From contig JAIEQK010000192.1 in the NCBI GenBank assembly GCA_019747795.1, positions 1 to 35,602 of the forward strand: 35,602 nucleotides of DNA. Reading direction: 5' to 3'. Below, in pieces: positions 8,431-35,602 of this stretch. A program made the position numbers and the translations under genes. Each line of letters starts with the position of its first letter. Position 1 is the first letter of the stretch. This DNA is from Gammaproteobacteria bacterium. GTDB taxonomy: Bacteria > Pseudomonadota > Gammaproteobacteria > Ga0077536. The notes beneath the pieces were generated by a model. That model ran no database searches and was not told where the DNA came from. It saw only the letters and a list, made by a program, of their open reading frames with translations.

Positions 8431-10194
8431 ATGACAAAAAGTGCCGAATTGGCGGCATGGGTCGAGTCCGTCGCGAAGTTGACGCAGCCGGACCATATCC
8501 ACTGGTGCGACGGCTCGGAGGCGGAGGCGGCTACGCTCACGCAACGCATGCTGGAAACGGGCGACCTCATTCGCCTGAATGAGCAGACCCATCCCAACTG
8601 CTTTCTGCACCGCTCCGATCCCCGCGACGTGGCCCGCGTCGAGCACCTGACATTCGTCTGCACGGACGTGCCCGAGGATGCCGGTCCGAACAACAACTGG
8701 ATGGCGCCGGCCGAGGGCCACGGCACCATCGATCCGCTGTTCGAAGGCTGCATGCGCGGCCGCACGATGTATGTCATTCCCTACCTGATGGGGCCGTACG
8801 GCTCGCCCTACGCGCGACCAGGCGTCGAGATCACCGACAGCCCGTACGTGGTGGTGAACATGCGCGTGATGGCGCGCATCGGCAGCGAGGCCCTGGCAGC
8901 CCTTGAGCAGGCCCCGCGCTTCGTGCGCGGCCTGCATTCCATCGGCGATCTCGACCCCGACCGTCGCTACATCATGCATTTCCCTGGCGAACTGCTCATC
9001 AAGAGCGTCGGCTCGGGTTACGGTGGCAACGCGCTGCTCGGCAAGAAGTGCCACGCGCTACGCATCGCCAGCGCCCAGGCCCGCGAAGAGGGCTGGTTGG
9101 CCGAGCACATGCTCATCCTCGGCATCGAGAACCCGCAGGGCGAGACCACCTACGTGGCGGCCGCGTTTCCCTCCGCCTGCGGCAAGACCAACCTCGCCAT
9201 GCTGGTGCCGCCGGCGAGCTACCAGGGCTGGAAGGTGTGGACGGTCGGCGACGACATCGCCTGGATGCACCTCGGGCCCGACGGCCGCCTGTGGGCCATC
9301 AATCCCGAGGCTGGCTTCTTCGGCGTCGCGCCGGGCACCAGCTCCAAGACCAATCCCAACTGCATGCATATGCTCGACCGCGACACCATCTTCACCAATG
9401 TCGCGGTGACGCCCGATCTGCAGCCCTGGTGGGAGGGCATGGACGGCGCCAAACCCGAGCGGCTCATCGACTGGCAGGGGCGCGAACACGACCCCGAGAA
9501 GACCGGCCCCGCGGCGCATCCCAATTCCCGCTTCACCGTCTCCGCCAAGCGCTGCCCGAGCTTCTCGCCCCAGGGCGAGGCGCCGCAGGGGGTGCCGATC
9601 TCGGCCATCATCTTCGGCGGTCGCCGCTCGACCGTGGCGCCGCTGGTGTTCGAAGCCAAGGACTGGGACCACGGCGTGTTCGCCGGTGCCGCCATGGCCT
9701 CCGAGACCACCGCCGCCGCCACCGGCGCGGTCGGGCAGGTGCGCCGCGATCCGATGGCCATGAAGCCCTTCTGTGGCTACAACTTCGGCGACTACTGGGC
9801 CCACTGGCTCGGCTTCGGCGCGAAGTCGGACCAGCTGCCGCGCATCTTCCACGTCAACTGGTTCCGCAAGGACGCCGACGGCAAGTTCATGTGGCCGGGC
9901 TTCGGCGACAACATGCGCGTGCTGGAGTGGATCCTGGAGCGCTGCGCCGGTCGCGGCGAGGCGGTCGAAACGCCGATCGGCTTCGTGCCGGGGGCCGGGA
10001 CGCTGCGAACCGAGGGACTCGACCTCGATCGTGCCGTGATCCAGGCGCTGCTCTCGATCGACCCGCAGGTCTGGTACAAGGAAGTCGAGGAGATCGAGGC
10101 CTACTTCGACAGCTTCGGCGCGCGCATGCCCAAGGGGCTGCGCGACCAGGCGCGTCTCATCAAGCTGGCGCTGGACGCGCAGCGCGCGGCCTGA
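8431..10194 (+). CDS. pckG: Phosphoenolpyruvate carboxykinase (GTP)
   Basis: The 587-residue protein belongs to the GTP-dependent PEPCK family, which converts oxaloacetate and GTP to PEP, GDP and CO2 as the gluconeogenic exit from the TCA cycle. The nucleotide-binding loop FPSACGKTN has the reactive Cys250 and the GKT at 251-253. Other family blocks visible are FPGELLIKSVGSGYGGNALLGKKC, broken here as IKSVGSGYGGNALLGKK for the substrate region, and PNCMHML. The start is the ATG at 8431, preceded by GGAG at 8419-8422; the frame is open upstream but that part is unlike PEPCK. It sits between the phasin and phaR genes, consistent with switching carbon between storage, TCA and gluconeogenesis. 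Confidence 0.97.
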   Translation: MTKSAELAAWVESVAKLTQPDHIHWCDGSEAEAATLTQRMLETGDLIRLNEQTHPNCFLHRSDPRDVARVEHLTFVCTDVPEDAGPNNNWMAPAEGHGTIDPLFEGCMRGRTMYVIPYLMGPYGSPYARPGVEITDSPYVVVNMRVMARIGSEALAALEQAPRFVRGLHSIGDLDPDRRYIMHFPGELLIKSVGSGYGGNALLGKKCHALRIASAQAREEGWLAEHMLILGIENPQGETTYVAAAFPSACGKTNLAMLVPPASYQGWKVWTVGDDIAWMHLGPDGRLWAINPEAGFFGVAPGTSSKTNPNCMHMLDRDTIFTNVAVTPDLQPWWEGMDGAKPERLIDWQGREHDPEKTGPAAHPNSRFTVSAKRCPSFSPQGEAPQGVPISAIIFGGRRSTVAPLVFEAKDWDHGVFAGAAMASETTAAATGAVGQVRRDPMAMKPFCGYNFGDYWAHWLGFGAKSDQLPRIFHVNWFRKDADGKFMWPGFGDNMRVLEWILERCAGRGEAVETPIGFVPGAGTLRTEGLDLDRAVIQALLSIDPQVWYKEVEEIEAYFDSFGARMPKGLRDQARLIKLALDAQRAA

Positions 10195-10208
10195 GGGAGG
10201 CCGCGCCG

Positions 10209-10240
10209 CCGGCCTTCGCGGTGAACGCCGCGAAGGCCGG
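10209..10240. terminator. 13-bp hairpin between convergent pckG and phaR
   Basis: A perfect 13-bp stem (10209-10221 with 10228-10240) closes a 6-nt TGAACG loop, 15 bp after the pckG stop. There is no U-tract on either strand, so its action may be Rho-assisted or mRNA-stabilising. The position suggests bidirectional use. Confidence 0.6.
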
Positions 10241-10251
10241 TCAGAGGGGGA

Positions 10252-10767
10252 TCATTCGTCGTCCGGCTCGTCGTCACCGGCGGTCGGCGGCGTAGAGGCC
10301 TTGCCGCGCGCGGGCGCGCGCGCGCCCTTGAAGAAACTGTCCTGCATCTGCCGCCACATGTCGAAGTTCTGCTTGGCCATCTCGCTGAACGCCGCCGGCA
10401 TGGGCAGGCTCTCCATCGCTTCGCGCATCTGGTTCTGGAAGCGCTGCTGCTGCTCCTGGAACATGTTCAGGCTCTGGCTGATGAAGTCGCCGGCCACGCC
10501 TTGCACCGAGTTCCCGTAGAACCCGATCAGTTGTTCCAGCACGTCCGTCGAGAACAGCGGCTCGCCGGCTTCCTCCTGCTCGATGATGATCTGCAGCAGG
10601 ATGTTGCGCGTGATGTCCTCGCCGGACTTCTTGTCGATGACGCAGAAGCTGACCCCGTCCAGCACCAGCTTGCGCACGTCCTGGAGGGTGACGTACTTGC
10701 TTTCCGCGGTGTCGTACAGACGGCGGTTGGGGTACTTCTTGATGACCCGTTTGACTTCGTCGTTCAT
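10252..10767 (-). CDS. phaR: PHA synthesis repressor PhaR
   Basis: The 171-residue protein begins with VKRVIKKYPNRRLYDT, the PHB/PHA accumulation regulator DNA-binding domain, with the conserved KYPNRRLYD motif. A Gln/Met/Phe-rich region follows (MFQEQQQRFQNQMREAM), which in the family contacts the polymer or granule. PhaR binds both DNA and nascent PHA, and releases phasin and its own promoter when granules form. The ATG at 10767 is chosen because the open frame upstream is not PhaR-like; the ribosome-binding site is weak (AAGG). It follows phaA on the same strand with an 83-bp gap. The tail is acidic (DDEPDDE). Confidence 0.95.
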   Translation of the reverse strand: MNDEVKRVIKKYPNRRLYDTAESKYVTLQDVRKLVLDGVSFCVIDKKSGEDITRNILLQIIIEQEEAGEPLFSTDVLEQLIGFYGNSVQGVAGDFISQSLNMFQEQQQRFQNQMREAMESLPMPAAFSEMAKQNFDMWRQMQDSFFKGARAPARGKASTPPTAGDDEPDDE

Positions 10768-12165: not shown

Positions 12166-13584
<1,419 letters not shown>

Positions 13585-14793
13585 TCAGACCTCGAGCAGG
13601 ATGCGGGTCGGGTCTTCGAGCAGACGCCGAATGGTGTCGAGGAACTGCACGGCCTCGCGGCCATCGATGATGCGATGGTCGTAGGACAGCGCGAGGTACA
13701 TCATCGGCCGGATCACCACCTGGCCGTTCTCGGCCACCGGGCGGTCCTGGATCTTGTGCATGCCGAGAATCGCGCTCTGCGGCGGGTTGATGATCGGTGT
13801 CGAGACCAGCGAGCCGTACACGCCACCATTGCTGATGGTGAAGGTGCCACCGGTCAGTTCGTCGATGGTCAGCTTGCCATCGCGCGCGCGCTCGCCGAAA
13901 TCACGGATGCGGCGTTCGATCTCGGCGAAGTTCATGCGCTCCACGTCGCGCAGGATCGGCACCACGAGGCCACGCTCCGAGCCGACGGCCACGCCGACGT
14001 CGAAGAAACCGTGATAGATGATGTCATCGCCGTCGACCGAGGCGTTGACCACGGGGAACTTCTTCAGCGCCTCGACCGCGGCCTTGACGAAGAACGACAT
14101 GAAGCCCAGGCGCACGCCGTAACGATCCTCGAAATCGCCCTTGAAGCGATTGCGCAGGTCCATCACCGGCTGCATGTTCACCTCGTTGAAGGTGGTGAGC
14201 AGCGCGTTGTCGCGCTGTGCGGCGAGCAGGCGCTCGGCGGTGCGCTTGCGCAGGCGCGTCATCGGCACCCGCTCTTCGATGCGATTGGCGACCGCGTGCG
14301 GCTGGGCCTGCACGGTGAGCGCCGGCGCCGGCGGCGCGCTCGGTTGCGCCGCGGCAGGTGGACGCGCGGCCGCGGCGCTGATGTCGGCCTTGGTCACGCG
14401 GCCGTCCTTGCCGCTGCCGGGGATGCTGGCCGGATCGACGCCGGTCTCGGCCGCGAGCTTGCGCGCGGCAGGGCCGGGCTTCGGCGCGGGCGCCGCGGCT
14501 GCGACCGGCTCGGGGGTGGATGCCGCGGGCGCGGCGGCGGCGACGGTCGCCGTGCCCTCGGTGTCGATCACCGCGAGCACCACGTCGGTCAGCACCACGT
14601 CGCCGGTCTGATGGCGAATCTCCTTCAGCACGCCGGCTTCGGGCGCCGCGACCTCGAGCGTGACCTTGTCGGTCTCGAGATCGATGAGATTGTCGCCTCG
14701 CTCGACCCGCTCACCCACTTGCTTGTACCAGTTGAGCAGCGTCGCGTCGGGCACGGATTCGGCGAGCTGGGGCACTTTCACTTCGATTAACAA
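13585..14793 (-). CDS. sucB: 2-oxoglutarate dehydrogenase E2, dihydrolipoamide succinyltransferase
   Basis: The 402-residue E2 core has one lipoyl domain with the lipoylated Lys43 in ETDKVTLEV, an Ala/Pro-rich linker (about 80-110), an E1/E3-binding domain near [13 protein letters not shown], a second Ala/Pro linker and a catalytic domain ending in [13 protein letters not shown], with His373 and Asp377. It transfers the succinyl group to CoA. The start is TTG with GGGAGA upstream; an internal GTG a few codons later is a less likely alternative because it would remove conserved lipoyl-domain residues. It lies 34 bp after sucA. Confidence 0.96.
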
Positions 14794-14827
14794 GACGATT
14801 CTCCCGGATGCGGCTTCAGCGCGACGC

Positions 14828-17671
14828 TCACGCCGACTTCTTCTGTTTCATTTCACGCTGCGACAGGCGCAGCGCCTCATCGATGATGCGTGCCTGCTGC
14901 TCGAGGTGTAGCGACACGTAGCCCACCGCCGGCGACGCAGACTGCGGCCGCGCGACGCAGCTCAAGGACATCTCCTCGGTCAGGCAGCCGCGCAGGTGGC
15001 GGGCCGAGAGCAGCATGGACCAGGCGCCCTGGTTGCGCGGCTCTTCCTGCACCCACACGAGCTTGTCCGCCTTCGGATATTGCGCGAGCAGCGCCTGCAT
15101 CTCTTCACGCGGAAAGGGATAGAGCTGCTCGAGACGGATGATCGCGCAGTCCTCGATGCCGTGTTCGCGCCTGGCCTCCAGCAGATCGAAGTAGACCTTG
15201 CCGCTGCAGGCCAGGATGCGCCGCACCTTGGTCTTGTCGAGCGCATCCACCTCGTCGATGACGGGCCGGAAGCCGCCGTGGGTGATCTCGCTCAAGGGCG
15301 AGACCGACAGGCGGTGACGCAGCAGGCTCTTCGGACTCATCACCACCAGCGGCTTGCGATAGGGACGCAGCATCTGTCGGCGCAGCATGTGGAACATCTG
15401 CGCGGGCGTGGTCGGATAGCAGACCTGCATGTTGTCCTCGGCGCAGAGCTGCAGGTAGCGCTCGAGACGCGCCGAGGAGTGCTCCGGTCCCTGGCCGTCG
15501 TAGCCATGGGGCAGCAGCATCACCAGGCCGCAGTAGCGTCCCCACTTTTCCTCGCAGGACGCGATGAACTGGTCGATCACGACCTGCGCGCCGTTGGCGA
15601 AGTCGCCAAACTGCGCTTCCCAGATGACCAGCGCGTTGGGCTCGGTGCTGGCATAGCCGTACTCGTAGCCCAGCACCGCCTCTTCCGACAGCGTGGAGTT
15701 GATCACCAGGAAGCTCGCCTGGTCAGGCGCGAGATTCTGCAGCGGCAGGTAGGTGTCGCCGGTCTTCTGGTCGTGGATCACCGCGTGGCGATGGAAGAAG
15801 GTGCCGCGGCCGCTGTCCTGGCCGGAGATGCGCACCGGCGTCTTGTCGCTGAGCAGAGCGGCGTAGGCCAGCGTCTCGGCGAAGCCCCAGTCGCAGTCTT
15901 TCTCGCCCTGCGCCATCGCGTGGCGATCGGCCAGCAGACGCGTCACCGCGCGATGCAGCGTGAAGTTCTCGGGCACGGTATTGAAACGCTCGGCCAGTCG
16001 GCGCACGCGTTCGGCACTGATGGCGGTGTCGGTCTCCTCGCGCCAGTCGGTGCCGCGGAAAGGCTCGAAGTTGGTCGCGTAGCGGCCGTCGGTGAACTTG
16101 GCATGGGGTCGCGACACGACCTCGTTGTTCTCCAACGCGGTCACGTAGTTCGCCGCCATCGCCTCGGCGTCACCCGGCTTGATCACACCGGCCTGCACCA
16201 GCTTCTCGGTGTAGACCTTGCGCACGCCCGGATGATTGCGGATGTGCTGGTACATGATCGGCTGGGTCGCCGCCGGCTCGTCGGCCTCGCTGTGGCCGTG
16301 CTTGCGGTAGCAGATCATGTCGATGACGACGTCCTTCTTGAACTCCATGCGGTAGTCGAGCGCGATCTGCGCGGCCAGCGCCACTGCCTCGGGGTCGTCG
16401 CCGTTGACGTGAAAAATAGGCGCCTGGACCATCTTCGCCACGTCCGTGCAATAGAGCGTCGAGCGCGAATCCAGCGGGTCGCTGGTGGTGAAGCCGATCT
16501 GGTTGTTGATGACGATGTGCACCGTGCCGCCGGTGGTGTAGCCGCGCGTCTGCGAGAGGTTCAGCGTCTCCATCACCACGCCCTGGCCGGCGAACGCGGC
16601 GTCACCGTGGATGAGGATCGGCAGCACCTGGCTGCGTTCGTGATCGCGGCGCCGGTCCTGGCGCGCGCGCACCGAGCCCTCGACCACCGGGTTGATGATC
16701 TCGAGGTGCGAGGGATTGAAGGCCAGTGTCAGGTGCAGCGGCCCGGCTGGCAGCTGGATGTCGGACGAGAAGCCCATGTGGTACTTCACGTCGCCCGAGC
16801 GCGTCTCGCGCGGCCCCTTGCCCTCGAACTCCGCGAACAGCTTGGACGGATGCTTGCCGACGATGTTGACCAGCACGTTGAGGCGGCCGCGGTGCGCCAT
16901 GCCGACCACGCATTCCTTGAGACCGTGGCGGGCCGCGTCTTCCACCAATTGGTCCATCATCGCGATGAACGACTCGCCGCCTTCGAGCGAGAAGCGCTTC
17001 TGCCCGACGTACTTGGTGTGCAGGTATTCCTCCAGCGCGCCGGCCGCGATCACCCGCTCGAGCAGCTGGCGGCGCTTGGCTGCGTCGAAGTTCGGCTTGG
17101 CGCGGGTCGGTTCCAGGCGCTGCTGGATCCAGCGCTTCTGCGTGGTATCGACGATGTGCATGTACTCGGCACCGATGGTGCCGCAGTAGGTGGTGCGCAC
17201 GATGTCCAGGATGTCGCGCAGGGTGGCGCGGTCCGGTCCCTGCAGCGAGCCGGTGTTGAACACCGTGTCGAGGTCGGCGTCGGTCAGGCCGTGGAAGGCC
17301 GGGTCCAACTCGGACACCACCGGCCGTTCGTACTGGTTCAGAGGGTCGAGGTGGGCCTGGCGATGACCGCGGAAGCGGTAGGCATTGATGAGCTGCAGCA
17401 CCGCGACCTGCTTGGCTGCGTTCTGGGCGTCGTCCTGGACCACGGTCACGGTCGCACCGCGCGGCTGGGCAGCGATCGCCAGCATGCGGTCCTGGACCTC
17501 GGAATGGCGCACGTCGCGCCGGGCATCGGAGCGTTCGTCCTGGAGTGAGGCGAAGTAGGCCCGCCATTCGTCGCTGACCGCCAGTGGGTCGGCGAGCCAG
17601 GTCTCGTAGAGTTCTTCCAGGAACGGGGCGTTGGCGCTGTAGAGGCAGGAGGGAGGCGGCTGGGTCATCAT
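14828..17671 (-). CDS. sucA: 2-oxoglutarate dehydrogenase E1 component
   Basis: The 947-residue thiamine-diphosphate enzyme decarboxylates 2-oxoglutarate and succinylates lipoyl-E2 in the TCA cycle. The N-terminus ([19 protein letters not shown]) is the E2-binding helix typical of OdhA/Suc[18 protein letters not shown] and NNQIGFTT form the cofactor and metal-binding core, and the C-terminal part contains the transketolase-like [18 protein letters not shown], given here as [17 protein letters not shown]. Two ATG codons are adjacent (17671 and 17668), with AAGGA upstream; either may be used. The frame is open upstream to 17785 but that part is not SucA-like. It heads the sucA-sucB-lpd operon. 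Confidence 0.97.
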
Positions 17672-17731
17672 GGTTCCTTGCGGCTGATCCGAAGTGGACC
17701 GCGTCGTCCGGGCGTCGCCGGAATCGGCTTC

Positions 17732-17745
17732 GCCGTCGCGACGGC
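17732..17745. repeat. Perfect 14-bp palindrome upstream of sucA
   Basis: GCCGTCGCGACGGC reads the same on both strands. Its place in the sucA leader or promoter makes an operator possible, but GC-only palindromes arise readily in such DNA. Confidence 0.3.
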
Positions 17746-17894
17746 ATATCGGCAAACGACACGGAGATCTTTGATCAATCGGCACTTCATGTCATTAAGG
17801 ACGCCTGCGCCGCGGCGGTGCGAGTGGCGCTGCCAGCGCGCGGACAAGGCTCGTCGACTAGTGTACGTCCCTCGCCCCGGGACGGTTCGCTGCC

Positions 17895-17924
17895 TTGCCC
17901 GGTCTTCCCACGGAACGGTATGCT
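17895..17924 (+). promoter_or_regulatory. Possible mdh promoter
   Basis: TTGCCC (17895-17900) and TATGCT (17919-17924) are separated by 18 nt; each matches the consensus at 4 of 6 positions. The resulting leader of about 185 nt is long, so another promoter may exist nearer the gene. Confidence 0.3.
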
Positions 17925-18116
17925 TGCGCGCTCCCGTCGCGGGATTGCCCGCATCGCGGCGGCAGCGATCCGGGGGACAGCGCCGCGCCTCCCGCCCCTA
18001 TCCTGCCCGCGCCCGGACACGCACCCACGGGCGTCCGTCCGCGACCGGGCGGGCCGCGGTGCATCCGCCCGCCCGACGAACCCTATGAACCTCTCGACTG
18101 AAAGGACCTGCCTGTT

Positions 18117-19097
18117 ATGAAGCCCCCTGTACGCGTTACCGTCACCGGCGCCGCCGGTCAGATCTCCTACGCCCTGCTGTTCCGCATCGCCGCCGGCGAA
18201 ATGCTCGGCCGCGACCAGCCGGTGATCCTGCAGCTCCTGGAAGTGACCCCGGCGATGAAGGCGCTGCAGGGCGTGGCGATGGAACTCGACGACTGCGCGT
18301 TCCCGCTGCTGAAGAGCATGGAGCTCACGGACGACCCGAACGTCGGCTTCAAGGACACCCAGGTGGCGCTCTTGGTCGGTGCCCGTCCGCGCGGTCCCGG
18401 CATGGAGCGCAGCGACCTGCTCGCCGCCAACGGCGGCATCTTCAAGGTGCAGGGCAAGGCCATCAACGACAACGCCTCGCGCGACATCAAGGTGATCGTG
18501 GTCGGCAACCCGGCCAACACCAACGCCTGGACCTGCATGAAGAGCGCGCCGGACATCAATCCCGCGCAGTTCACCGCCATGACCCGCCTGGACCACAACC
18601 GCGCCAAGGCCCAGCTCGCGGCCAAGACCGGCAGCGCGGTGTCCGATATCAAGAAGGTCACCATCTGGGGCAACCACTCGACCACCCAGTACCCGGATCT
18701 CAGCCAGGCGACCGTCGGCGGCAAGGCCGCGCTGTCGCTCGTCGAGCGCCCCTGGTACGAGAACGACTACATTCCGCGCGTCGCCAAGCGCGGCGCCGAG
18801 ATCATCGACGCACGCGGCGCCTCCAGCGCTGCCTCGGCGGCCAATGCCGCGCTCGAGCACATGCGTGACTGGGTGCTGGGCACGCCCGAAGGCGACTGGG
18901 TCAGCATGGGCATCCCGAGCGACGGCAGCTACGGCATCGAGCCGGGGCTCATGTATTCCTTCCCGGTCACCTGCAAGGACGGCAAGTACAGCATCGTGCA
19001 GGGGCTGCCGGTCGACGAGTTCAGCCGCAAGCGCATGACCGTCACGGCCGACGAACTGAAGGAAGAGCGCGACGCCGTGCAGCAGCTCCTGGCCTGA
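18117..19097 (+). CDS. mdh: Malate dehydrogenase
   Basis: The 326-residue enzyme oxidises malate to oxaloacetate with NAD+. It belongs to the cytosolic-type MDH group found in many proteobacteria: NAD-binding TGAAGQIS at 10-17, mobile-loop arginines in [10 protein letters not shown] (Arg92, Arg98), LDHNRA with Asp159 and Arg162, and catalytic His187 in WGNHST. Length and motifs are complete. AAAGGA upstream of the ATG is the likely ribosome-binding site, with slightly long spacing. It is divergent from sucA and followed by a strong terminator, so it is monocistronic. Confidence 0.97.
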
Positions 19098-30183: not shown

Positions 30184-30318
30184 TCTAGTGCGAGGCCCCG
30201 CCGGTACCAGCCCGCGCGGCTGGCGGCACCACCCTGGGCGATTCCCGGGCGAAGGGGATAGAATCAGGGTTCTTCTTGATCTCCATCAACCCAGCCACAG
30301 AAAAAGCGGAAATCGACC

Positions 30319-30915
30319 ATGCCCTTCACACTACCTGCCCTGCCCTACGCGGACAACGCTCTCGACCCCGTGATCTCGTCGAACACCCTGGGCTTCCATT
30401 ACGGCAAGCACCACAAGGCCTATGTCGACAACCTCAACAAGCTGGTCGCCGGCACCGAATTCGAGGCCATGTCGCTGGAAGACGTGATTCGCAAGACCGC
30501 CGGCGTGGCCGACAAGGCCGGCGTGTTCAACAACGCCGCGCAGATCTGGAACCACACTTTCTACTGGAACAGCCTGAAGCCGAACGGCGGCGGCGCGCCG
30601 ACCGGCGCCATCAAGGCCAAGATCGAAGCTGCCTTCGGCAGCTACGAGAAGTTCGCCGAGGACTTCGCGCAGGCCGCCGTCACGCAGTTCGGCAGCGGCT
30701 GGGCGTGGCTGGTGGCGGAAGGCAGCGAGGTCAAGCTGGTCAAGACCGCCAATGCCGAAGTGCCCTTCACCAAGGGACAGACGCCGCTCCTGACCATCGA
30801 CGTGTGGGAACACGCCTACTACCTCGACTGGCAGAACCGCCGCCCCGACTACGCCAAGGCGGTGATCGAGAAGCTCCTGAACTGGGACTTCGCGAACGCC
30901 AACCTGGCTGGCTGA
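30319..30915 (+). CDS. sodB: Superoxide dismutase, Fe type
   Basis: This 198-residue protein dismutates superoxide in the cytoplasm. Metal ligands are His27, His79, Asp161 and His165 (DVWEHAYYLDW); Gln75 in NAAQIWNHTFYW is the outer-sphere residue typical of Fe-SOD, while Mn-SOD has its Gln elsewhere. Length and motifs are complete. No Fur or RyhB-type site was identified. It is followed by two strong hairpins, so it is probably monocistronic. Confidence 0.96.
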   Translation: MPFTLPALPYADNALDPVISSNTLGFHYGKHHKAYVDNLNKLVAGTEFEAMSLEDVIRKTAGVADKAGVFNNAAQIWNHTFYWNSLKPNGGGAPTGAIKAKIEAAFGSYEKFAEDFAQAAVTQFGSGWAWLVAEGSEVKLVKTANAEVPFTKGQTPLLTIDVWEHAYYLDWQNRRPDYAKAVIEKLLNWDFANANLAG

Positions 30916-30925
30916 CGCTAGCCTT

Positions 30926-30977
30926 TCGCGCCGCTTGCGCGGCGCGAGCGGGCCGCCGGTGAAGGCCGGCGGCCCGC
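30926..30977 (+). terminator. Tandem hairpins after sodB
   Basis: A 9-bp stem (30926-30934 with 30939-30947, TTGC loop) is followed at once by a 12-bp stem (30948-30959 with 30966-30977, TGAAGG loop). Neither is followed by a U-tract. They separate sodB from the next operon. Confidence 0.6.
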
Positions 30978-31086
30978 CGTCGCCTCTCTCTTCCCCAGCG
31001 CGCGCGCCGCGTGCGCCACGCCTCTTGCAAGCCCTGTCGACCGGCGCGACCATCCCCTGACGCACACGAGGAGGGGAGGACTCGCG

Positions 31087-31980
31087 ATGGCGGAGCCAGT
31101 CTATGGTTTCGTGGGTGTGGGCCGCATGGGCTCACTGATGTCCGGCCGCCTGCTCGCGGCCGGACACACCCTGTGGGCCTTCGACAGCGCGCCTGCCGCG
31201 CTGGCCGCGGCCACGGCCGCAGGCGCTCACGGCGCGGCCTCGCCGCGCGCAGTGGCCGACGCCGCCGATGTCGTGTTCCTGAGCCTGCCGACGCCCGACA
31301 TCGTGCAGGCCGTCGCGCTTGGCCCCGACGGCCTGGTACACGGCCAGCGCGCGAAGCGCATCGTCGATTTCTCCACCATCGGTCCGCGCATGGCGAGCCA
31401 CGTCGCCGCCGCGCTCGCGCCGCATGAGATTGTCTACGTCGATGCCCCGGTGAGCGGCGGCCTGGCCGGCGCGCGCGACGGCACGCTGGCGGTGATGGTG
31501 TCCTGCGCCCGAGCGGTGTTCGAGGAACTCGAGCGCGTGCTCGCCACCTTCGGCAAGGTCTTCCATCTCGGCGAGGGCGCGGGCCAGGCGCAGACCATGA
31601 AGCTCGCCAACAATCTCTTGTCCGCCGCCGCCGTCGCGCTCACCTCGGAAGTGATGGTGATGGGCGTCAAGGCGGGCCTCGATCCGCGCACCATGCTCGA
31701 CGTGATCAATGCCGGCTCCGGGCGCAACAGCGCGGCGCAGGACAAGTTCCCCAAGGCCATCCTGCCCGGCACCTTCGATTTCGGCTTCCACACCGGGCTG
31801 TCCTACAAGGACGTGCGCCTGTGTATCGACGAGGCCGAGCACCTGGGCGTGCCGATGGTGGTGGGCGCGGCGGTGCGTGAGATGCTCGCGGTGACCAACG
31901 CGATGTATGGACCGGAGTCGGACTTCACTTCGCTGTGCCGGGTGATCGAATCCTGGGCCGGCGTGACCGTGCGCGGCTGA
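31087..31980 (+). CDS. 3-hydroxyisobutyrate dehydrogenase-family oxidoreductase
   Basis: This 297-residue beta-hydroxyacid dehydrogenase has the NAD(P) loop FVGVGRMGSLM at 8-18, the substrate motif DAPVSGG at 119-125 and the catalytic Lys172 in QTMKLANNL. The family includes 3-hydroxyisobutyrate, tartronate-semialdehyde and 6-phosphogluconate-like enzymes; the exact hydroxyacid is unknown. A strong GGAGGA precedes the ATG. It is the first gene of a four-gene operon, ending 5 nt before the MmgE/PrpD gene. Confidence 0.93.
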   Translation: MAEPVYGFVGVGRMGSLMSGRLLAAGHTLWAFDSAPAALAAATAAGAHGAASPRAVADAADVVFLSLPTPDIVQAVALGPDGLVHGQRAKRIVDFSTIGPRMASHVAAALAPHEIVYVDAPVSGGLAGARDGTLAVMVSCARAVFEELERVLATFGKVFHLGEGAGQAQTMKLANNLLSAAAVALTSEVMVMGVKAGLDPRTMLDVINAGSGRNSAAQDKFPKAILPGTFDFGFHTGLSYKDVRLCIDEAEHLGVPMVVGAAVREMLAVTNAMYGPESDFTSLCRVIESWAGVTVRG

Positions 31981-31985
31981 CGGCC

Positions 31986-33368
31986 ATGGTCGCCGTCGTC
32001 GCGCGAAGCGAGGACCCGGCGCCGCTCGCGCGCTCGCTCGCGGAGCGCGCGCTGGCCTGCACGTACGCGGACCTCGACGCCGCCACCGTCGCCAAGGTCA
32101 AGACCTGTCTGCGCGACTTCATCGGTTGCGCGTGCGAGACCTTCGATCTGCCCTGGGCGCGCCAGGCGCGCGCGGCGGTCGGCTTCGGCGCTGCCGAAGG
32201 TGCGAGCGTGATTGGCTGCGCGGTTGCGGCCACACCGGGTGACGCCGCCTTCGCCAACGCCGTCATGGGTCATGGCCTGGTGCGCGAGGACATGCACGCC
32301 GGCAGCATCTCCCATCTCGGCATCGTGGTGCTGCCTGCGCTGCTCGCCCAGGCCGAGACGCAGCCGGTCTCCGGCGCCGACTTCATCGCCGCCACGGTGG
32401 TCGGCTACGAGGCCGGTGGACGTCTCGGGCGCGCGCTGCTCGATAAGGACGTGGCGCGCATCCACCGTCCGACCGGCATCACCGGGCCGCTGGCCGCGGC
32501 GCTGGCCGGCGCTCACTTGCGCGGCCTTGCGCCTGATGCGGCCACGAGCGCCCTGGCCCTCGCGGCCAACGCCTGCGCGGGCTTCAACCAGTGGGCGCAC
32601 ACCGGCGGCAGCGAGATGTTCTTCCAGGCCGGCCTGGCGGCGCGCAATGCCGTCACCGCGGTCGACCTCGCCGTGGCCGGCGCCTTCGCGTCGCCGGACG
32701 CGCTGGAGGGCGAGGCCGGACTGTTCGTGGCGCTGCGGCGGCGCGAGCGGGCGCAGGGCGTGCGCTTGTTCGACGGTCCGCCCGAGATTCTTGCCGTCTA
32801 TCACAAGCCGGTGCCGGCCTGTAATTTCGCCCAGACCGCGACCGTCGCCGCCGCCGACCTCGTTGCCCAGGGTGGCTTCACGCCGGCCGACATCGCGGCC
32901 ATCGAAGTGCGCGTGCCGCTGGCCGGTGCGCGTTATCCGGGCTGCGACGCGCGTGGCCCGTTCGAGCACGTCCTGCAGGGCAAGATGAGCATCCAGTTCA
33001 ATGTCGCCGCGACGCTCGTGAGCGGCTCGGCGGGCGAGCACAAATTCGCGTTGCTGGACGATGCCGCCGTGCGCGGGCTCATCGCCCGCACCACGCTCAC
33101 GGTGGACGATGCGCTGACCGCCGCCTACCCGGGTGCGCAGGGTGCCGAGGTCGCGCTCACGCTGCACGACGGCCGCGCGCTGCGTCGCCGTCTCGACGAT
33201 GTGCGCTTCGCAAGCGCGGACGAGGTGCGCGCGCGCTTTCTGGCGGCGCTCACTACTGCCTTCGGCGCGGAGCACGCGGCCGCGGTCGACGCCGCCATCG
33301 AGTCCCTGGACAGCTTCGCCGATGCCGGCGCGCTACCGCGCCTTCTGCGTCGCGCGCGCGGCGCCTGA
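31986..33368 (+). CDS. MmgE/PrpD family protein
   Basis: The 460-residue protein belongs to the family of 2-methylcitrate dehydratase (PrpD), cis-aconitate decarboxylase and related lyases or epimerases acting on di- and tricarboxylates. Visible blocks are FANAVMGHGLVREDMHAGSISHLG near 87-110, quoted here as GHGLVREDMHAGSISHLG, AATVVGYEAGGRLGRAL, and ACNFAQTATVAAADL in the C-terminal half. It is not next to prpB or prpC, so a propionate role is unlikely. The start at 31986 is 5 nt after the upstream stop, indicating cotranscription. The substrate is unknown. Confidence 0.9.
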   Translation: MVAVVARSEDPAPLARSLAERALACTYADLDAATVAKVKTCLRDFIGCACETFDLPWARQARAAVGFGAAEGASVIGCAVAATPGDAAFANAVMGHGLVREDMHAGSISHLGIVVLPALLAQAETQPVSGADFIAATVVGYEAGGRLGRALLDKDVARIHRPTGITGPLAAALAGAHLRGLAPDAATSALALAANACAGFNQWAHTGGSEMFFQAGLAARNAVTAVDLAVAGAFASPDALEGEAGLFVALRRRERAQGVRLFDGPPEILAVYHKPVPACNFAQTATVAAADLVAQGGFTPADIAAIEVRVPLAGARYPGCDARGPFEHVLQGKMSIQFNVAATLVSGSAGEHKFALLDDAAVRGLIARTTLTVDDALTAAYPGAQGAEVALTLHDGRALRRRLDDVRFASADEVRARFLAALTTAFGAEHAAAVDAAIESLDSFADAGALPRLLRRARGA

Positions 33369-33404
33369 CGCGCGGCGTCGATTCCACATTCAACCAGGAG
33401 TGCC

Positions 33405-33812
33405 ATGCTGATGAACGACGACTTGTTCGATCGCGGTCTCGCCATTCGCAAAGCGGTGCTCGGCGCCGAGTTCGTCGAGAAGTCGTTGGCCGGCGCCGAC
33501 GAGTTCACCATGCCGCTGCAGGAACTCGTCACCGAGTACTGCTGGGGCGCGGTATGGGGGCGCGAGGAACTGCCGAAGCGCATCCGCAGCATGCTCAACA
33601 TCGCCATGCTGTCGGTGCTGAACCGGCCCAACGAACTCAAGGTGCATGTCGCCGGCGCGCTGCGCAACGGCGTCAGCAAGACCGAGATCCGCGAAGTGCT
33701 GCTGCAGGTCGCGATCTACGCCGGCGTGCCGTGCTCGGTGGATTCCTTCCGCGTCGCGCGCGAGTCCATCGCCGAGTACGAACGCGCCCAGGCCGACGGC
33801 GGCAAGGGCTGA
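33405..33812 (+). CDS. Carboxymuconolactone decarboxylase family protein
   Basis: The 135-residue, all-helical product has the PcaC-like core: RIRSMLNIAMLSVLNRPNEL, VHVAGALRNGVSKTEIREVL and LLQVAIYAGVPCSVDSFRVA. PcaC decarboxylates 4-carboxymuconolactone in the protocatechuate route; the wider family includes unrelated activities. It lacks the AhpD-type CxxC. AGGAG precedes two nearby ATGs (33405 and 33411); the first is used here. It sits in the four-gene operon, 36 nt after the PrpD-family gene. Confidence 0.9.
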   Translation: MLMNDDLFDRGLAIRKAVLGAEFVEKSLAGADEFTMPLQELVTEYCWGAVWGREELPKRIRSMLNIAMLSVLNRPNELKVHVAGALRNGVSKTEIREVLLQVAIYAGVPCSVDSFRVARESIAEYERAQADGGKG

Positions 33813-33830
33813 GCACTCGGACCGCTGAAC

Positions 33831-34628
33831 ATGGCCGAAGACACCTACGAGATCCATGCCGTCAAGTACGCCTACGTGACGCGCCGCTCGCCGGACAATT
33901 TCCTCGGCGGCGATCCCCACGACGTGCCGATGCCGCTCAACTACTACGTGTGGGTGGTGCGTAACGCGGCGCGCACGGTGGTGGTCGACACCGGCTTCGG
34001 CGAAGGCGCCGCGGCCAAGCGCGGTCGCCAGATCATCCACCCGGTGGCCGAGGGCCTCGCCGCGCTCGACATCAGCCCGTCCGCGGTCGACACCGTGGTC
34101 ATCACGCACCTGCACTACGACCACGCCGGCAACCTGCCGCTGTTCGAACGCGCGCGCTTCCATCTGCAGGACAGCGAGATGAGCTTCGCGACCGGTCGCT
34201 GCATGTGTCACCACGCGTTGCGCCACGGCTACGAGGCCGACGACGTGGTGCAGATGGTGCGCTACGTGTTCGACGAACGCGTGCGCTTCCACGCCGGTAC
34301 CCATGAACTCGCGCCGGGCATCGAACTGCACCATCTCGGCGGGCACACCCAGGGCCTGCAGGTGGTGCGGGTGCGCACCGCGCGCGGCTGGGTGGTGCTG
34401 GCCTCGGACGCCAGCCACTTCTACGCCAACCTGGAACAGGCGCGGCCCTTTCCCATCGTGCACGATCTCGGCGCGATGCTGGACGGCTACCAGCGGCTGC
34501 GCGAGCTGGCCACCTCGGAGGCGCACATCGTGCCGGGCCATGACCCGGCGGTCATGGCGCGCTACCCGGTGGCGCGCCCCGGCCTCGAGGACTGGGTGGT
34601 GCGCCTGGACCTGGCACCAGGTGCCTGA
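33831..34628 (+). CDS. Metallo-beta-lactamase fold hydrolase, N-acyl-homoserine-lactonase-like
   Basis: The 265-residue product carries the complete dinuclear zinc site: H93-x-H95-x-D97-H98, His172, Asp193 and His237. Overall it resembles the AttM/AiiA type of lactonases more than beta-lactamases or glyoxalase II. It may hydrolyse a lactone formed by neighbouring enzymes or quench acyl-homoserine lactones. It is the last gene of the operon, 18 nt after the decarboxylase-family gene and 13 nt before a terminator-like hairpin. Specificity is not deducible. Confidence 0.92.
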   Translation: MAEDTYEIHAVKYAYVTRRSPDNFLGGDPHDVPMPLNYYVWVVRNAARTVVVDTGFGEGAAAKRGRQIIHPVAEGLAALDISPSAVDTVVITHLHYDHAGNLPLFERARFHLQDSEMSFATGRCMCHHALRHGYEADDVVQMVRYVFDERVRFHAGTHELAPGIELHHLGGHTQGLQVVRVRTARGWVVLASDASHFYANLEQARPFPIVHDLGAMLDGYQRLRELATSEAHIVPGHDPAVMARYPVARPGLEDWVVRLDLAPGA

Positions 34629-34641
34629 GCGCGGCGATTCC

Positions 34642-34664
34642 CTCGGGCGTCATTGACGCCCGGG
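34642..34664 (+). terminator. Hairpin closing the four-gene operon
   Basis: CGGGCGTC (34644-34651) pairs with GACGCCCG (34655-34662) around ATT, with two more pairs outside (one G-U). It lies 13 nt after the lactonase-like gene and has no U-tract. Confidence 0.5.
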
Positions 34665-34718
34665 GTTCGGCGCGTGACCATGGCCATTCTCGAACAGCGG
34701 TTCAGGCGGAGAAGGGGC

Positions 34719-34988
34719 ATGGCCGGCGGATGGTCGCGCGACGGCGCGGTGCAGGACCAGATCGATCAGAGCATCGCCGACGCGGTGAAGCACGCGCGCG
34801 AGGCGCTGGCGCCGGTCGGCGAATCGCGCCCCGATTGCGAGGAGTGCGGCGAGCCCATTCCGGAGGCGCGCCGCAAGGCCGTGCCTGGCGTGCGCCGCTG
34901 CGTCGCCTGCCAGGAGGCGCTGGACGCCGAGACCCGCTTTCAGAGCACCTTCAACCGCCGCGGCAGCAAGGACAGCCAGCTGCGCTAG
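34719..34988 (+). CDS. DksA/TraR C4-type zinc finger protein, YbiI-like
   Basis: The 89-residue protein resembles E. coli YbiI: it begins with a GW-rich segment (MAGGWSRDGAVQDQID), has a short helix, then a zinc finger Cys40-x2-Cys43-x17-Cys61-x2-Cys64, and ends with NRRGSKDSQLR, the same C-terminus as YbiI. It lacks the coiled-coil tip with the acidic residues that DksA inserts into RNA polymerase, so DksA-like activity is not expected with confidence. The ATG at 34719 aligns with YbiI; upstream in-frame ATGs are not supported. Confidence 0.92.
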   Translation: MAGGWSRDGAVQDQIDQSIADAVKHAREALAPVGESRPDCEECGEPIPEARRKAVPGVRRCVACQEALDAETRFQSTFNRRGSKDSQLR

Positions 34989-35127
34989 ACCTCTCGGTCG
35001 AGGTCATCTCGCCAACACCGAGACGCGGTCGCACGAAGAGATTATCTCGACCAAGTCCCCGAGGCTGGTCTTTCGACGCGCCACGCGTCACCATCACGGG
35101 CTTTCACACACACCTGAGGAGAGGGAT

Positions 35128-35508
35128 ATGTTTTCGCACATCATGGTCGGCAGCAACGACCTGGACAAGTCCAAGAAGTTCTATGACGCGATGCTCGGCG
35201 CGCTTGGCGCCAAGCCCGCGATCGTCGACGACAAGGGCCGCCTGATCTACATGCACAACAATGGCATCTTCATCGTCACCAAGCCGATCGACGGCAAGGC
35301 GGCGACCGGCGCCAACGGCGGCACCATCGGCTTTGCCTGCGCCTCGCAGGAACAGGTCGACGCGATGCATGCGGCCGGCTGCGCCAACGGCGGCACCACC
35401 TGCGAAGATCCGCCCGGCGTGCGTGAGGGCGGCTTCGGCAAGCTCTACCTGTGCTACATGCGCGATCCGGCCGGCAACAAGCTCTGCGGCATGTTCCGTC
35501 TCGGCTGA
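35128..35508 (+). CDS. VOC (glyoxalase/dioxygenase) superfamily protein
   Basis: The 126-residue product has two beta-alpha-beta-beta-beta modules: FSHIMVGSNDLDKSKKFYDAML at the start (quoted without its first Met as HIMVGSNDLDKSKKFYD) and GTIGFACASQEQVDAMH in the second half, ending with YMRDPAGNKLCGMFRL. His4 is at the usual first metal position, but the second module has Gly at the usual metal site, so metal binding may be altered. Function is unknown. GAGGAGAGG upstream of the ATG is a strong ribosome-binding site. Confidence 0.88.
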   Translation: MFSHIMVGSNDLDKSKKFYDAMLGALGAKPAIVDDKGRLIYMHNNGIFIVTKPIDGKAATGANGGTIGFACASQEQVDAMHAAGCANGGTTCEDPPGVREGGFGKLYLCYMRDPAGNKLCGMFRLG

Positions 35509-35519
35509 GTTGCGCTCGG

Positions 35520-35548
35520 CGCGCGGCGGCCGTTCCGGCCGCCGCGCG
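35520..35548 (+). terminator. 13-bp GC hairpin after the VOC gene
   Basis: Positions 35520-35532 pair perfectly with 35536-35548 around a TTC loop, 11 nt after the stop codon. There is no U-tract. Nothing else is recognised up to the right edge. Confidence 0.55.
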
Positions 35549-35602
35549 GTGCGGGCCTGCGCGTCACGGCGCGGCGCCCGCTGCTTCTTACCCCGCCGAG
35601 GG

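Follow-up and report, generated by a model that had tools for sequence, protein, structure and literature searches.

A conserved four-gene set around a divergent MmgE/PrpD-fold enzyme in a gammaproteobacterium, with features of a possible lactone-acid catabolic pathway

We analysed a 35,602-nucleotide stretch of DNA from a Gammaproteobacteria bacterium (the window; contig JAIEQK010000192.1 of assembly GCA_019747795.1), focusing on four intact plus-strand genes, here called A to D. Gene A (31087..31980, 297 aa) encodes a 3-hydroxyisobutyrate-dehydrogenase-superfamily enzyme with NAD_binding_2 and NAD_binding_11 domains, B (31986..33368, 460 aa; MmgE_PrpD_N/_C) an MmgE/PrpD-fold enzyme of a divergent subfamily, C (33405..33812, 135 aa) a PcaC-like protein of the carboxymuconolactone-decarboxylase (CMD) family that scores under the PcaC cut-off, and D (33831..34628, 265 aa; Lactamase_B with lactonase relatives) a metallo-beta-lactamase (MBL)-fold lactonase-like hydrolase. 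The gene set is real, conserved, catabolic-looking and apparently uncharacterised, and it is built from known enzyme families; we put at roughly 0.55 the probability that A–D form an operon for the core enzymes of an as yet undescribed pathway degrading a small carboxylated lactone or the matching hydroxy acid. An earlier note, made from the letters of this DNA, had given the intergenic gaps of 5, 36, and 18 nt and the families of the four products, all of which we found as described, the families by family searches. It had missed what we consider the most informative feature of the locus, namely that B, as judged from alignments, is without half of the reported MmgE/PrpD dicarboxylate signature.

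B carries both Pfam domains of its family (PF03972 and PF19305; 147.2 and 68.4 bits vs a gathering score of 32.1), and its predicted structure (mean predicted local distance difference test score, pLDDT, 93.3) aligned over its full length with the eleven MmgE/PrpD entries listed, including mouse and human cis-aconitate decarboxylase, iminodisuccinate epimerase, Bacillus IRG1 and MmgE, and PrpD (Z 36–46, root-mean-square deviation (rmsd) 2.3–3.4, 427–435 residues aligned). Passages of a 2025 study of the family state that MmgE/PrpD homologues occur in 19.2% of the species in its database and are mostly uncharacterised, that the four characterised activities all act on 1,4-dicarboxylates, and that the substrates of all known members contain a 1,4-dicarboxylate core, which is coordinated by residues that every member conserves, in methylsuccinate isomerase His88, Glu91, His102, His152, Lys202, and Lys266 (PMC12290011); a passage on Bacillus IRG1 names D91, H102, K200, K266, C271, and H151 (PMC7347537). 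In HMMER alignments, the six signature positions mapped in B to H96, V99, H110, R161, M211, and K274. B keeps H96, the catalytic histidine H110 and one enolate lysine, K274, as well as IRG1 C271 (C279 in B), and replaces the acidic D/E by V99, a signature His by R161 and a signature Lys by M211. One alignment placed this Lys between M211 and F212, while Gly anchoring and a second alignment placed it at M211; B has no Lys at that signature position under either alignment.

The replacements were near-constant in the relatives of B. We took as named loci the 80 best of 182 stretches encoding a B relative (E 1e-3 or better; one-per-species genomes) and added L031 and a broken copy, L037, in which positions 96–110 are missing, leaving out duplicate-locus copies from the same genomes. 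In these 82 subfamily sequences, V99 and H110 were present in 81/81, R161 and K274 in 82/82, and position 211 was Met in 81 and Leu in 1, so that three of the six signature residues are replaced throughout the subfamily; R100, W203, Y317, and K333 were invariant. By comparison, columns 99/110/161/211/274 of 21 other MmgE/PrpD proteins from relatives' genomes held Asp in 20 (one gap), His in 21, His in 20, Lys in 20, and Lys in 21. The 47 distant rows of the residue alignment include the copy on plasmid pAKD34, although it bears the subfamily motif; 25 of the other 46 come from B loci themselves, mostly from one Bradyrhizobium clade, which is why these 21 were counted separately. The second-base Tyr of epimerases and isomerases was absent at position 156 in all 82 subfamily sequences (L 51, V 10, I 7, F 5, M 4, T 4, N 1), a criterion that is unspecific, since just 5 of the 21 other proteins have Tyr there. 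In the B tree the subfamily formed one group (84/84 sequences) with low node support (0.27, and 0.19 in another tree); the subfamily claim is thus carried by the residue pattern and not by the tree.

Judged by these residues, B retains the proton-abstracting His and one enolate-stabilising Lys without the full dicarboxylate clamp, which suggests a substrate other than a 1,4-dicarboxylate. A plain methylcitrate/propionate role was rejected, as B scored far under the PrpD cut-offs (25.5 vs 575 for NF006943 and 28.9 vs 950 for NF042438); B is the sole MmgE/PrpD N-domain match in the window's genome. Somewhat short of even odds, in our estimate, is the stronger proposal that B represents a new MmgE/PrpD function, an enolate-forming lyase acting on something other than a 1,4-dicarboxylate, within an undescribed and widespread lactone-acid pathway that has a transporter in most lineages. 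If true, B would break the published rule that all MmgE/PrpD members share a 1,4-dicarboxylate core.

The residues of B bear directly on an alternative that we regard as unlikely, a branched-dicarboxylate pathway (itaconate, methylsuccinate, 2-hydroxyparaconate) in which D would open a paraconate-type lactone and B would isomerise or dehydrate a dicarboxylate held by its arginines. Such a pathway would recall the Pseudomonas itaconate cluster, which, according to passages of its description, contains an MmgE/PrpD protein that is a methylsuccinate isomerase and encodes a proposed 2-hydroxyparaconate lactonase (PMC12290011). The B member of pAKD34 lies near acyl-CoA transferase and acyl-CoA dehydrogenase annotations reminiscent of that cluster, and a conventional MmgE/PrpD gene adjoins the cluster in many Bradyrhizobium loci. 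However, B is without three of the six dicarboxylate-binding residues and without the second-base Tyr (0/82 at position 156), and none of A–D matches a CoA-transferase, CoA-hydratase or CoA-lyase family.

Our preferred reading, a lactone-acid pathway encoded by A–D, draws on the conservation of the whole set. The earlier note had proposed searching for the same gene order elsewhere and had taken a lack of co-occurrence as refuting its idea; the set does recur in other genomes, and the idea passes this check. Among 40 relatives' genomes searched (39 besides the window's own), a close B was found in 5/39 (56–61% identity), and 4 of these 5 have all of A-B-C-D with the order unchanged. In genome G016 (L037, about 9155-10541), B was split by a frame or stop defect and A was only a remnant, with its first 78 residues matched at 44%, while C and D looked intact. 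An evenly drawn sample of 274 genomes from the class yielded a close B (at E 1e-60 or better) in just 2, the window's own among them.

Linkage was then scored in the 80 named loci, 34 of which are Bradyrhizobium by title, with flanks of up to 10 kb (less than 9 kb on at least one side in 20/80) and identity thresholds of at least 50% for A and C and at least 45% for D. A was found near B in 68/80, C in 63/80, D in 58/80, and all three in 53/80; the full set was present in 43 of the 60 loci whose flanks reach 9 kb or more on each side. With Bradyrhizobium excluded, the counts were 34/46 for A, 30/46 for C, 31/46 for D, and 26/46 for all three. At the same thresholds, A, C and D were found in 0/20 control stretches around distant MmgE/PrpD genes of relatives' genomes, several of which are short contigs, weakening the control; a weak A-like match (26%) occurred in 2/20, and C and D were absent down to E 1e-6. 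The grouping therefore exceeds chance neighbourhood, and it extends over loci titled Beta-, Gamma-, and Alphaproteobacteria, a few Acidobacteria and one Marinimicrobia bin. Moreover, the pairwise distances of A, B, C, and D were correlated (r 0.68–0.94; 50 loci and the window; 0/1000 permutations reached each value), using the best-scoring copy per locus, so that second copies of C and D may be mixed in. Gene order varied, from A-B-C-D to A-B-Liv-C-D, with D divergent (L062, L074) or with A and C ahead of B (L089, L109). Since the set persists while its order changes, a functional link is favoured over a frozen order. One A-B-Liv-C-D cluster (L038) lies in a metagenome bin titled Bordetella parapertussis, a title that may be wrong.

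The three partners of B are each consistent with a catabolic role, and none of the four proteins reached a named equivalog cut-off. A has the two domains and the conserved K172 expected of the 3-hydroxyisobutyrate dehydrogenase superfamily, and carries D33, present in 69/69 rows. As a general rule for Rossmann folds, Asp at that position favours NAD+, and A would therefore be expected to work in the direction of oxidation. It stayed under all equivalog cut-offs for HIBADH, tartronate semialdehyde reductase and threonate dehydrogenase (199 vs 397 at best; 194 vs 341, 180 vs 292, and 143 vs 350).

C matched PcaC (TIGR02425) over positions 2–121 of 123 with 142.0 bits (141.5 in a second search), under the cut-off of 155.7, and has a conserved H81; a plain PcaC identity was dropped on this score. 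The genome encodes a second PcaC-like protein (C292:13846-14208, 139 bits) and has 22 CMD-domain matches, some of which are two domains of one frame. We also weighed a PcaC/PcaD-like tail for a carboxymuconolactone-type compound, in which C would decarboxylate, D would be an enol-lactonase replacing PcaD, and A and B would form a side branch. The 142-bit score of C and the proximity of C and D (at most 1.5 kb apart in 47/80 loci, second copies counted) speak for it, as does the fusion of pcaC and pcaD in NF051488, but C does not reach the PcaC cut-off, no ring-cleavage or PcaB family appeared among those recurrent neighbour clusters that were identified, and the known pathway has no place for A or B; we consider this scheme quite unlikely.

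D shows the hallmarks of a dinuclear MBL lactonase, an HxHxDH motif with two further His and a bridging Asp; H93, H95, D97, H98, H172, D193, and H237, which we take to be metal ligands as in AiiA-type lactonases, were invariant in 25 rows. Its nearest solved chain by fold was 8x78, an N-acyl-homoserine lactone (AHL) lactonase of Pseudomonas poae (Z 33.5, rmsd 2.3, 259 aligned), followed by GcL, 4-pyridoxolactonase, and AiiA types (Z 27–29; 9b2i 28.7, 3aj3 28.4). D scored 41–61 bits against the AiiA, AidB, AhlS, YtnP, AttM, and 4-pyridoxolactonase models, whose cut-offs are 325–475, and an identity as a named AHL lactonase was dropped. These results also bear on a quorum-quenching or signal-lactone salvage operon, in which D would cleave AHLs and the other enzymes would use the products. 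An AHL lactonase is the nearest solved relative of D by sequence as well as fold, the D encoded on a Pseudoroseomonas plasmid carries the annotation N-acyl homoserine lactonase family, and a penicillin-amidase-family protein, of the family that includes AHL acylases, lies near B in three B-only Acidobacteria loci (one cluster). These Acidobacteria loci, however, have no D, the 44–61 bits of D compare with AHL-lactonase cut-offs of 360–475, and A, B, and C are ill suited to acyl-homoserine, all of which makes this explanation highly improbable.

In the lactone-acid pathway that we favour, whose substrate class, reactions and step order are deduced from families and residues, D would hydrolyse a lactone and A would oxidise the freed alcohol with NAD+. 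B would abstract a proton alpha to a carbonyl via H110, with K274 stabilising the enolate, and would then eliminate (dehydration or decarboxylation) on a substrate other than the usual 1,4-dicarboxylate, and C would decarboxylate a lactone or a beta-keto-type intermediate. Uptake in most named relatives would probably proceed via a Liv-type ATP-binding cassette (ABC) transporter encoded in the same cluster. Chemical reasoning alone suggests mevalonolactone, pantolactone, paraconate-type lactones, and isosaccharinolactone as candidate substrates. The earlier note had likewise combined lactone opening, decarboxylation, dehydration or isomerisation, and oxidation; the catalytic residues agree with lactone opening by D and with oxidation by A, while activity and substrate stay at the level of prediction. 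Its suggestion that the pathway may be undescribed is in line with our search of the open-licence literature, in which no paper describing the A–D set was found as judged by titles and abstract starts.

Several points weigh against this reading. The proposed difference in substrate rests on an alignment and on a published rule drawn from few characterised members, and R100 and R161 could bind carboxylates in another way. D may instead be an MBL hydrolase of some other type, and CMD proteins are not all decarboxylases. Correlated distances are expected of jointly inherited genes, and genome relatedness explains part of the correlation. Furthermore, the LivK of one relative had no match in the window's own genome, in a search that had no positive control. 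At least one of A, C, and D was missing within the flanks in 27/80 loci, and all three were missing in 9/80; B therefore also occurs outside the set. These nine loci speak for four enzymes of separate roles that belong to no single pathway and stay together through vertical inheritance; mere inertia, however, does not predict that order varies between lineages while the set persists, and the controls gave 0/20, so that we find this explanation very doubtful.

The lactone-acid pathway would in most named relatives be encoded by a larger cluster. In most of the named loci the order was A-B, then branched-chain-amino-acid-type ABC transporter genes (a permease, a permease-ATPase fusion, an ATPase, and one or two binding proteins), followed by C and frequently by D. 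LivH was found in 41/80 loci, the LivM/G/F type in 62/80, LivK in 57/80, and any of them in 63/80. Other neighbours in the 80 loci were two short-chain dehydrogenase/reductase families (34 and 27), GntR (29) and LysR (13) regulators, a TctC-type receptor (34), aldehyde dehydrogenase (6/80), and a malate/lactate-type dehydrogenase (Ldh_2; 5/80); all these neighbour counts are approximate, coming from a simple open-reading-frame picker and single-linkage clusters each named from one or two members. The window itself had no transporter gene in the A–D interval, nor did any of these transporter clusters turn up elsewhere in it, and the loci of its close relatives (L048, L049, L050, L052) were also without transporter genes within their flanks. 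The seven compact loci formed no clean clade in the B tree, where their common ancestor spans 21 sequences, a scatter that might reflect a transporter gained or lost more than once. The four-gene unit of the earlier note is thus a conserved set but also a short version of a cluster that carries transporter genes in most named relatives.

In many Bradyrhizobium loci, such as L063 (6192-8815), a conventional MmgE/PrpD gene lies beside A-B on the opposite strand, together with a D and a second C. This conventional member bears the D/H/K signature, and the two MmgE/PrpD types may serve one pathway there. In the plasmid collection, four records encode a B relative: a Pseudoroseomonas plasmid and pAKD34 carry the subfamily, and two Rhodococcus records match B at 37% identity. 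On pAKD34, a conjugative IncP plasmid, the member (L032, 2896-4116; 41% identity) belongs to the subfamily by motif (I99, R100, R161, I211) and is flanked by two proteins that group with TctC receptors; amidohydrolase, acyl-CoA transferase, and acyl-CoA dehydrogenase annotations are nearby. The Acidobacteria loci L086, L099, and L110 (one cluster) have B without A, C, or D; its neighbours there (DUF6152, FAD-linked oxidase, penicillin-amidase-like) give no clue to the substrate.

The layout of the four genes suggests that they are transcribed as an operon. The earlier note had placed hairpins on both sides, after a sodB gene upstream, whose identity a family search confirmed, and at 34642. Folding was strong on both sides: the upstream region (30915-30990) gave -52.3 kcal/mol (z -4.2) and the downstream region (34628-34680) -35.7 kcal/mol (z -4.9), with 0/200 shuffles equally good in each case. 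Upstream, two adjacent strong plus-strand hairpins 3' of sodB (30926..30977) form a possible terminator whose tail is C/T-rich and not T-rich; downstream, a strong plus-strand hairpin 3' of D (34640..34665) has no T-tract. A terminator scan of 30200-35602 returned two overlapping sites vs 2.6 expected in shuffles, both at the 3' flank of the upstream hairpins, with no site at 34642. As the scan did not exceed shuffles, the hairpins are real but their terminator role is unproven, and we dropped the description of them as proven intrinsic terminators. Overall, the earlier reading held in part, given that function is deduced, that the downstream hairpin is not recognisable as a terminator, and that the cluster is usually longer. 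Directly 3' of the D hairpin, on the same strand as D, lies a DksA/TraR-family C4 zinc-finger gene (34677-34988; NF008243, 135 bits vs a cut-off of 96), followed downstream by a VOC-superfamily gene (35128-35508; family match). Elsewhere in the window, 12166-19097 is an ordinary tricarboxylic acid cycle block: the minus strand encodes a dihydrolipoamide-dehydrogenase-type protein, a 2-oxoacid acyltransferase, and 2-oxoglutarate dehydrogenase E1, and the plus strand a malate/lactate dehydrogenase.

A B subfamily with near-constant replacements, accompanied by lactonase-like, dehydrogenase, PcaC-like, and often transporter partners, offers a lead, directly open to assay, towards a new enzyme activity and probably also towards a new catabolic pathway in Bradyrhizobium and other soil bacteria; the set is spread over many soil and water bacteria.

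Compared with known systems, each protein combines clear likeness with a distinct departure. B is like the characterised MmgE/PrpD enzymes (2-methylcitrate dehydratase, cis-aconitate decarboxylase, iminodisuccinate epimerase, and (S)-(R)-methylsuccinate isomerase) in whole-length fold, catalytic His, and one enolate Lys, but differs in having three of the six dicarboxylate residues replaced and no second-base Tyr. C resembles PcaC, 4-carboxymuconolactone decarboxylase, over nearly the full TIGR02425 profile, yet remains sub-cut-off, and no other protocatechuate-pathway family is found among the four genes. D shares the fold and seven metal-site residues of AHL lactonases and 4-pyridoxolactonase, whereas it falls far under their named cut-offs and sits among catabolic enzyme families. 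A matches the 3-hydroxyisobutyrate, tartronate-semialdehyde, and 2-hydroxymethylglutarate dehydrogenases in domains, Lys, and NAD+-type Asp, but lies under all equivalog cut-offs. As a whole, A–D is like lactone-acid catabolic operons in general in pairing a lactonase with a dehydrogenase. The gamma-butyrolactone operon blc (attKLM) of Agrobacterium, with its lactonase, alcohol dehydrogenase, and aldehyde dehydrogenase (the last found in few relatives here), has a similar outline, but uses another dehydrogenase family and has no known counterpart of B or C.

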